From Alcaligenes aquatilis (lineage in GTDB: Bacteria; Pseudomonadota; Gammaproteobacteria; Burkholderiales; Burkholderiaceae_B): a DNA stretch of 64,000 bases. The stretch is taken from assembly GCF_003076515.1 (NCBI RefSeq), contig NZ_CP022390.1, positions 3,480,572 through 3,544,571 on the forward strand, in the 5' to 3' direction. The notes under the pieces are model-generated. The model saw only the letters and a program-made list of their open reading frames with translations. It was not told the origin of the DNA and did not search any database. Shown here one piece after another: positions 47,432 through 51,305 of the stretch (within the stretch, counting starts at the first letter, position 1; the number at the start of each line of letters is the position of its first letter). Made by a program: the position numbers and the translations under genes.

Positions 47432-48094
47432 ATGACAATTTCCATTCGTTCTGCAAAATTAGCAGCATGTGCGGGTGCTCTTTCCCTTTTGGCCGCTTGC
47501 GGCACTATGGACAATATGAGCACAGGCGGTCGTACCGCAATGGGTGCCGGCGGCGGTGCTGCTGTGGGGGCGGGTATTGGGGCCTTGATCGGAGATAGCA
47601 GCAAGGCAGCCATGATCGGTGCAGGTATCGGCGCCCTGGCTGGTGGTATTGCTGCGTATAACTGGTCTGGCATCAAAAAGGATGTTCAGCAGTCTGGGGC
47701 AACTGGGCTGGGTGTGGATGTGACCGAAATGGCTGATGGCAGCTTGCGGGTCAATATTCCTAGCAGTGTGTCTTTTGATACGGGTCGCTATCAGTTGAAA
47801 CCCGCTTTGCTGCCTGTGCTCGACAGTGTTGCTCGTGCGATGAATCAGCATCCCGAGTTGCGTGCCAAGGCTGTTGGTCATACCGATAGCACCGGTTCGG
47901 CGCAAACCAACCAGACTTTGTCGGTCAACCGTGCCAGTGCGGTAACCAACTACCTGACACAGCAAGGTGTGGGGCAAGGTCGTCTGATGGTGGAAGGCCG
48001 TGGTCCGAATGCTCCTATTGGCGATAATGCCACGGCTGAAGGCCGCGCCATGAACCGCCGTGTGGAGTTGTATTTGTACGCTCCGCAGAAGTAA
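47432..48094 (+). CDS. OmpA-family peptidoglycan-associated lipoprotein with glycine zipper
   Basis: A 220-aa outer-membrane lipoprotein. The signal ends at lipobox LLAAC (Cys23). A glycine-zipper segment (MGAGGGAAVGAGIGALIGDSSKAAMIGAGIGALAGG, about 37-72) precedes the C-terminal OmpA peptidoglycan-binding domain (VSFDTGRYQLKPAL, VGHTDSTGSAQTNQTLSVNRASAV, NRRVELYLY). It resembles the YiaD/OmpA-like lipoproteins. A terminator follows. Confidence 0.92.
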   Translation: MTISIRSAKLAACAGALSLLAACGTMDNMSTGGRTAMGAGGGAAVGAGIGALIGDSSKAAMIGAGIGALAGGIAAYNWSGIKKDVQQSGATGLGVDVTEMADGSLRVNIPSSVSFDTGRYQLKPALLPVLDSVARAMNQHPELRAKAVGHTDSTGSAQTNQTLSVNRASAVTNYLTQQGVGQGRLMVEGRGPNAPIGDNATAEGRAMNRRVELYLYAPQK

Positions 48095-48157: not shown

Positions 48158-48200
48158 GTGCTCGATCGGGGAGTAATGGAGTTTGAGGGCAGGGTCCTCT

Positions 48201-48235
48201 GCTTGTTGCTTGTTGCTTGTTGCTTGTTGCTTGTT
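48201..48235 (+). repeat. Tandem heptamer repeat (GCTTGTT)5
   Basis: Five exact copies of GCTTGTT lie 44 bp after the OmpA-gene terminator, at the edge of the non-coding island. Such short perfect arrays vary readily by slippage. Confidence 0.95.
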
Positions 48236-48331
48236 GTTAGTTGTGAGCTGCCAATTGGCGCTTATCTGTTGTCGCTGATGGCGTCACCGTTGCTTTGGGG
48301 GTAAGGCTGATTATTGAGTAGAACCCAGTAA

Positions 48332-48573
48332 TGAGCACGCCCTTGGGGGCGGTGGGGACCCGAAGGGGCTTGAGCACTTGCCGGTGCTGCGCACCGGTCC
48401 CCTTGTCGAGGTTCTCATCCGGGCGCACTCTGAACTCGCGGGGTGGTTCGTCCCCCGGACGAACCACAAGCGTCCCGCTCAAACAGCAGAGCGCTTGCAC
48501 CCCGGATCATGCCCCCGCCTGCGGCAAGTACTCTGAATCGCCCCCCCGGGTCCCCACCGCCCCCAAGGGCTCA
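48332..48573 (-). ncRNA. Structured element, copy A (candidate structured RNA)
   Basis: A 242-nt element read on the minus strand. Its ends pair perfectly over 23 bp (48340-48362 with 48547-48569), then TGAG/CTCA after a 4-nt bulge. Inside are an 11-bp hairpin (48443-48467, loop CCC), a 7-bp hairpin (48381-48397), and a GCGGG/CCCGC stem (48438-48442 with 48474-48478). Unpaired blocks such as GGGGTGCAAGC, CTGCTGTTTGAGC, GAGTTCAG, TGCGCCCG and CGACAAGGG are shared with copy B at the same spacing. Stems differ but stay paired, so structure is conserved. No convincing gene lies inside. The family was not recognised. Confidence 0.7.
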
Positions 48574-48599
48574 TACCGTGGCTATTCAAGCAATCATGT

Positions 48600-48745
48600 A
48601 TTAAGGGTCTGAGATTTGGGATCTCGGATCTGAAGTTTGAGGCTTGAGGTTTGACGTTTGACGTCGGAGGTGAAAGGACTGAGGTGAGAGGTCGGAGGTT
48701 AAAGGTCTCAGGTGAGAGGCCTGAGGTGGGAGGTCAGAGATTCGA
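48600..48745 (+). repeat. Degenerate TGAGGT-type repeat tract
   Basis: This stretch between the two structured elements is built of many imperfect 6-8-nt units related to TGAGGT, TGAGAGG and TTTGACG. It is purine-rich on the plus strand and has no ORF of note. It looks like decayed simple-sequence DNA. Confidence 0.6.
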
Positions 48746-48816
48746 CGCAGGTTAGGAAAGTGTCACACGCCATCCAGGCATGCAGTTTGAACTGTCCAGA
48801 AAAAAACGATTGTGAG

Positions 48817-49047
48817 CCAGTTGAGCCTAGCTTCAGGGTGTCCGGGCGGCTCAGAGGGTTTGCCGCGGTCGGGAGATAGCGTAGGGGTGCAAGCATCCTG
48901 CTGTTTGAGCCGGACGCTTGTACTTGGTCCGGGGGACCAAGTACCCGGTGAGTTCAGGATGCGCCCGTAGCTATCTTCCGACAAGGGCACCGGTGCGGAG
49001 CACCGGCAAACTCTCAGGCCGGACACCCTGAAGCTAGGCTCAATTGG
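48817..49047 (+). ncRNA. Structured element, copy B (candidate structured RNA)
   Basis: A 231-nt element on the plus strand, inverted relative to copy A. Its ends pair perfectly over 25 bp (48821-48845 with 49019-49043), extendable to 29 bp with one G-T pair. Inside are an 11-bp hairpin GTACTTGGTCC/GGACCAAGTAC (48920-48944, loop GGG), a 7-bp hairpin CCGGTGC/GCACCGG (48990-49006), and GCCGG/CCGGT (48909-48913 with 48945-48949). The unpaired blocks are the same as in copy A, while three positions of the 11-bp stem differ with compensating changes on the other side. Confidence 0.7.

Positions 49048-49240: not shown

Positions 49241-51305
<2,065 letters not shown>

Follow-up and report, generated by a model that had tools for sequence, protein, structure and literature searches.

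Copies A and B, two inverted elements in a 64,000-nucleotide stretch of the Alcaligenes aquatilis genome (contig NZ_CP022390.1, positions 3,480,572 to 3,544,571; hereafter the window), belong to a scattered family of ~240-letter folding repeats that has no name in Rfam. We consider it probable that they are head-to-head copies of an old, dispersed, gene-less, non-autonomous mobile element whose fold has been kept by selection.

A folded element in two head-to-head copies

The two copies sit in the gap between two converging genes, with their 5' ends facing each other (Table 1). The lipoprotein gene beside copy A, which we take to be OmpA-type, shares 98% identity with its counterparts in Alcaligenes sp. 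SORT26 and A. faecalis AU14, and the ORF beside copy B is presumably thiC. Degenerate short tandem repeats occupy part of the spacer, flanking the copies at 48590-48760 and, on the other side, at 48200-48240; comparable repeats, even (GTT)n, adjoin other copies of the family (L004, L045, L018).

Table 1 Features of copies A and B and their neighbours, in window positions (G000 is the window's genome; R1 is the first covariance model)
Feature	Position	Strand	Basis or remark
Copy A, structured element	48332..48573	-	5' end near 48573, 3' end near 48332
Copy A conserved core, R1 positions 1-169	48370..48538	-	176.6 bits; covariance-model match G000:C1:3528941-3529109:-
Copy A outer helix P1, 5' arm, copy-specific sequence	48540..48570	-	fold
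Copy A outer helix P1, 3' arm	48339..48369	-	fold
Copy A apical hairpin P6, GTGGTTCGTCC/GGACGAACCAC	48443..48467	-	exchangeable module among copies
Spacer separating the 5' ends of A and B, 242 bases	48574..48815	.	no recognised gene
Copy B, structured element, head to head with A	48816..49047	+	z -13.0
Copy B conserved core, R1 positions 1-169	48849..49017	+	186.6 bits; covariance-model match G000:C1:3529420-3529588:+
Copy B outer helix P1, 5' arm, sequence unlike P1 of A	48817..48845	+	fold
Copy B outer helix P1, 3' arm	49019..49047	+	fold
Copy B apical hairpin P6, GTACTTGGTCC/GGACCAAGTAC	48920..48944	+	sequence, alignment
Neighbour gene, lipoprotein, convergent with copy A	47432..48094	+	ORF list; close Alcaligenes relatives
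Neighbour ORF, thiC-like, convergent with copy B	49241..51244	-	ORF list

In the predicted folds, each copy forms one long stem of ~240 nt that is interrupted by conserved internal loops and bears a side hairpin on its 3' strand. From the base upwards, the stem consists of an outer helix of ~30 bp, a second helix, helices of 11, 7-8 and 5 bp and an apical hairpin of 11 bp, and the unpaired blocks that separate them are conserved. The minimum free energy is -170.1 kcal/mol for copy A (z -9.3) and -155.8 kcal/mol for copy B (z -13.0), and none of 200 shuffles was as good in either case; within the core, the single-sequence minimum of copy A departs from the family consensus.

The first-pass annotation had placed both copies correctly, strands included, and the blocks that it described as common to them do follow in identical order. 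Its further observation, that the helices differ yet stay paired, was borne out: the apical hairpin arms of A and B differ at three compensated positions, and the change from GCGGG/CCCGC to GCCGG/CCGGT is real, one pair now being a G-U wobble. The same holds for the ~30 bp outer helix, absent from that annotation, which is paired in both copies with different sequences; P1 of copy A also shows a compensated change in its counterpart in another Alcaligenes (L026).

The copies had been described as lacking an ORF, which is right in substance, although mechanical ORFs of 93, 98 and 87 aa do overlap them. Neither the 93-aa nor the 98-aa ORF matched Pfam, and codon periodicity is lacking in the cores (codon-position entropies 0.713, 0.719 and 0.736). 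We therefore rejected a protein-coding reading, in which the element would be misread antisense coding sequence, and regard it as extremely improbable. A particular antisense frame stays open in 24 of the 35 cores, where shuffles predict 6.1, and two sense frames also exceed the shuffles (open in 18 and 12 of the 35). But among the copies scored, that antisense frame is open in 6 of 15 from outside Alcaligenes and in 14 of 22 from within the genus, and the substitutions are explained by base pairing.

Copies across the class

A DNA search with copy A found 25 places in its own genome, comprising 21 long matches (A included), two partial ones and two that are copy A's own outer arms in reverse, and gave matches in 11 of 61 genomes. 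By covariance model the window's genome holds 25 copies. Of the 10 Alcaligenes genomes scanned, the first model (R1), made from 35 Alcaligenes cores, was positive in nine, where it counted 14, 14, 25, 28, 29, 30, 30, 33 and 81 copies; the sole genome without any was G005. The same model, run on 200 genomes of the family from 43 genera, was positive in 68 genomes and 23 genera; a second model, built from 38 copies of Alcaligenes and other genera, was run on 369 genomes from 272 genera of the class and was positive in 23 genomes and 18 genera. The family and class scans were run with stricter filters that lose weak matches, which applies also to the 346 class genomes scored as negative. The genus, family and class counts all include the window's own genome. 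The first-pass annotation had proposed such a search of related genomes, and it returned many copies with further covariation.

In one Alcaligenes genome, three equal-score matches (G002:C1:3023946, 3069196 and 3114446) are spaced at intervals of exactly 45,250 bases, owing either to triplication in tandem or to an artefact of assembly. G073 belongs to another genus, and looking for its relatives gave no second genome of that genus. The element was absent from plasmids searched by BLAST, where one match, in Embleya, is to the spacer repeats and another, in Burkholderia cenocepacia, covers 47 bases directly 3' of the L136 element, and from phages searched by BLAST and a viral pattern scan. Nothing like this element is described in the portions of the literature consulted, including those of PMC8632094.

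Compensatory changes and the selected strand

Selection on the folded strand, as the first-pass annotation had read the two copies, is strongly supported by the family. In a plain sequence alignment of the 35 Alcaligenes cores, both sides have changed in 42 of 57 pairs (RNAalifold). In an alignment of 38 copies (A3), 96.9% of 2087 helix cells pair; the figure is 64.1% for shuffles and 31.5-44.5% with partners slid, and none of 500 shuffles or of the slid versions came as high. Both sides have changed in 50 of the 57 pairs. Among 28 matches from 19 distant loci, 90.0% of 1134 cells are paired, above all 500 shuffles (58.8%) and all slid versions (28.9-47.8%), and 48 of 57 pairs are doubly changed. 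The 38-copy and 28-copy alignments were fitted to the structure and lean towards it. The distant copies mostly lack the apical hairpin, with gaps at each of its pairs in 22-27 of the 28 rows, and one base pair of the 11-bp helix is not formed in 18 of 24. Together, compensatory change extends across most helices beyond the shuffled and slid controls, as in a conserved structured element, and stem-breaking mutations are less frequent than stem-keeping ones; equal frequency is what the first-pass annotation had named as counting against its reading.

The two strands are not equivalent. The more stable strand is the sense strand in 34 of 35 cores when both are folded, and on that strand 81 G-U cells stand against 26 A-C cells, counted over related sequences and leaving out one constitutive U-G pair. 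The G-U excess and the sense-strand stability indicate a folded single strand of that sense, either RNA or single-stranded DNA.

This asymmetry bears on the idea that the element is a palindrome at the DNA level, one arm being copied into the other by template switching at replication, without selection on RNA. Such copying would fit the outer arms, which are near-perfectly paired though different between copies, the blocks of changes that are compensated jointly in closely similar copies (L105 vs L112), and the short tandem repeats adjoining many copies. However, it predicts equal numbers of G-U and A-C cells, and it should have wiped out the conserved unpaired loops, which are still present in distant loci. 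We judge it improbable.

Exchange of helices between copies

The site of copy L002 holds the element in seven Alcaligenes genomes. The outer arms are common to six of them, those of G009 having diverged, and these six split into two inner helix sets: in G003, G006 and G007 the 11-bp helix and its neighbouring helix are different, both arms having changed together. The apical hairpin differs in G008 and is absent from G009. Across copies, the P3 arm CAGGAGATAGC is found in company with five different P6 apical arms, and single bases distinguish three of these. These comparisons show helices that have evidently been swapped between copies as modules, and gene conversion between copies would account for the exchange.

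Orientation and gene context

Nearby copies are almost always arranged as A and B are. G004 is the Alcaligenes genome with 81 copies; all but one of its 26 nearby pairs are (-,+), the exception being (+,+), and in 24 of the 26 the core starts lie 332-371 bases apart. Head-to-head orientation was likewise found in all five nearby pairs among the fetched loci of the window's genome, in all four of other genera (the partner in L056 being weak) and in seven of the eight distant pairs within 300 bases, the eighth being tail-to-tail (L137). No gene is common to the pair spacers that were looked at. Between the two copies at L084 1668-2652, a head-to-head pair of another genus, lies a toxin-antitoxin pair of the PaaA2-ParE type, and a ribbon-helix-helix protein is enclosed in the spacer at L044 722-1466.

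Solitary copies show a weak bias: among 28 examined by a simple ORF call, three of them without a called gene, 18 of 25 point their 3' end towards the 3' end of the neighbouring gene (p 0.04). Their sense strand is the C-rich strand in 55 of 77 cases (p 2e-4), namely 20 of 29 in G004, 24 of 33 in G073 (the matches listed, of 39) and 11 of 15 in the window's genome, with G073 alone below 0.05 on its own; this bias may only reflect the 3'-to-3' facing, since genes themselves are biased.

The context also bears on whether the copies are paralogues in a true non-coding RNA gene family, each with its own promoter and an RNA that binds a protein or a small molecule. The deep covariation, the conserved unpaired loops and the wobble-pair strand asymmetry are all in keeping with such a family. 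On the other hand, the sigma-70 signal upstream of 21 copies is not enriched (mean 7.49, below both the 7.60 of the opposite side and the 7.73 of shuffled sequence), copy number ranges from 0 to 81 within one genus, and a simple ORF call places many copies between genes that converge. An RNA gene family thus appears rather unlikely.

Units, ends and insertion sites

The non-autonomous mobile status of the element is supported by its dispersal, by the ends of its units and by groups of very similar copies. Ends are clearest in G004, where eight of 11 aligned pairs form ~730-bp units whose limits are marked by GGTTCTTCG...CGAAGAACC or similar sequences; the other three (L209, L224, L230) have no clear ends. 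Of the 28 unit ends found in G004, 25 are no more than 12 nt away from a run of five or more A or T, and these runs look like the T-tracts of intrinsic gene terminators. In the seven units with both ends, the flanking 8 bases agree at a mean of 6.9 of 8 (two exact, two at seven, three at six), while 42 mixed flank pairs average 3.2 of 8 with one exact; the apparent 8-bp target duplication is hence inexact in five of the seven. Insertion into terminator-like runs is shown for G004 only, and the units there resemble, in their sequence features, a derivative of a DDE transposon.

In other genera, AAGAA occurs 28-62 nt beyond the core on the 3' side of 20 of 32 copies vs the 5' side of one of 32, so that the 3' terminus resembles a G004-type end, and in head-to-head pairs such ends face outwards. 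In G073, 21 closely similar copies among the 23 examined occupy different sites and show, by eye, no inverted ends or target duplication, which suggests that the route of mobility may differ between lineages. At 18 loci of the window's genome, no GGTTCTT-type end lies beside the element, bar one lone match far out, and the window copies are best read as old residents without recognisable transposon ends.

In A. pakistanensis, A and B are missing and a trace of B's 3' end is retained, so the site reads as a deletion rather than a clean empty site. No clean empty site was found for L002 either: G001 and G004 match part of the flank and G005 none of it. In seven distant loci (L136, L140, L141, L145, L146, L150, L153) a second palindrome, of the TTTCTTTTGGTTACTTTTCTTTGG...AAAGAAAAGTGAC type, lies directly 3' of the element and is possibly another module of the same unit. 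The counterpart of copy A in G006 (L070, G006:C1:3123500-3127500, positions 1307-2486) is split near its apical hairpin by an IS110-type insertion that carries PF01548 and PF02371.

Search for a mobilising enzyme

No full-length parent transposon with the same ends was found in the fetched loci or in the ISL3 loci looked at. ISL3 was considered as the mobiliser because the G004 units begin GGTTCTTCG. Full-length matches among Alcaligenes occur in G002 and G006; in the window's genome and in G004, PF01610 gave a weak match alone, to a desaturase-like protein, and ISL3 was dropped as a candidate with its transposase missing from both. The weak match recurs in many genomes; in the five cases read (L275, L277, L279, L281 and L285) the protein concerned, ~405 aa long, is presumably desaturase-like and could mislead annotation, and these weak matches are thus no evidence for ISL3.

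The Y1 transposase (PF01797) was found in six of 15 genomes, with 5 of 14 controls detected, and in none of five Alcaligenes genomes, one of which is without the element; it is missing from G004 and from the genomes with 58 and 39 copies, and mobilisation of the REP/RAYT kind was set aside. A pattern search of the loci for a DUF559-type endonuclease beside the distant copies returned none.

One identity offered by the first-pass annotation was an ORF-less guide RNA of the HEARO/omega-RNA kind, which serves IscB or TnpB. The element is indeed structured and dispersed and lies, in one genome, inside units with mobile-type ends. But Rfam release 15 gave no family at gathering score, and laxer thresholds gave few matches, all below gathering scores and none to HEARO (the best, mir-2756 in L081, E 4.9e-6, is outside the element). 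The RRXRR/IscB domain (PF14239) was detected in none of 15 genomes, a weak result in that no control genome gave a signal either, and the Y1 transposase is missing from nine of the 15, including all five Alcaligenes tested. This identity was abandoned and is very improbable. The suggestion that the element is a folded substrate of a transposase fared better: the G004 units have inverted ends and apparent duplications, while no transposase was found. A folded element of a transposon comes closest among the identities that had been offered.

Discussion

Our results suggest a mechanistic model for the spread and retention of the element. An enzyme acting in trans at the ends of the units would move them into gene terminators, where insertion may do little harm. 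Afterwards the folded strand would come under selection, most simply as an RNA hairpin made by read-through transcription from neighbouring genes, and it could serve as a terminator or barrier; such a cellular role is one that we infer. Recombination between copies would renew the modules.

It is tempting to speculate further that this is an ancient, class-wide element whose identity is its fold, and that an enzyme unrelated to Y1/RAYT, to IscB and, in G004, to ISL3 reads the folded single strand, RNA or DNA, of the head-to-head pair and copies it into terminators while helices swap, sequences diverging under a constant shape. We hold this extended version to be doubtful, and favour the old, gene-less mobile element described above.

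The family combines a multi-loop fold of ~170-290 nt, in which most pairs are doubly changed, with up to dozens of copies per genome in several families of the class. The fold matches no family of Rfam release 15. It calls for a factor that recognises it. The copies also form a natural experiment in which selection and gene conversion hold a shape while the sequence drifts, and the open antisense frames of the element could be mistaken for genes.

Several known systems share part of these features. The HEARO/omega-RNAs of IscB are structured and of broadly similar size, but the element has no Rfam match, and the IscB domain was not found in the 15 genomes, where no control gave a signal. The ends of the G004 units share with ISL3 the start GG(C/T)TCTTC, seen at one ISL3 locus (L260), and ISL3 makes an 8-bp, AT-rich duplication; the remainder of the end differs, however, and the transposase is missing from G004 and the window's genome. 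Integron attC sites likewise retain their folding while their sequence varies, although no cassette array was seen at the element.

Intergenic repeats such as REP, ERIC and Correia sequences are short or simple palindromes. Like REP sequences and the BIMEs and REPINs, which are intergenic, dispersed, palindromic and often paired in inverted orientation, the element is intergenic, dispersed and palindromic and often forms inverted pairs. It is far longer than they are, and the Y1 transposase of the REP/RAYT system is missing from all five Alcaligenes tested.

The G004 units are like MITEs in being short and gene-less, with inverted ends, an apparent 8-bp duplication and A/T-run targets. Terminal inverted repeats and duplication are seen in these units but not in the window or G073 copies, and the window copies in particular differ from MITEs in being without such ends. 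A MITE requires conserved ends, not a conserved internal fold; unlike MITEs, the element has a conserved multi-loop interior with deep covariation.
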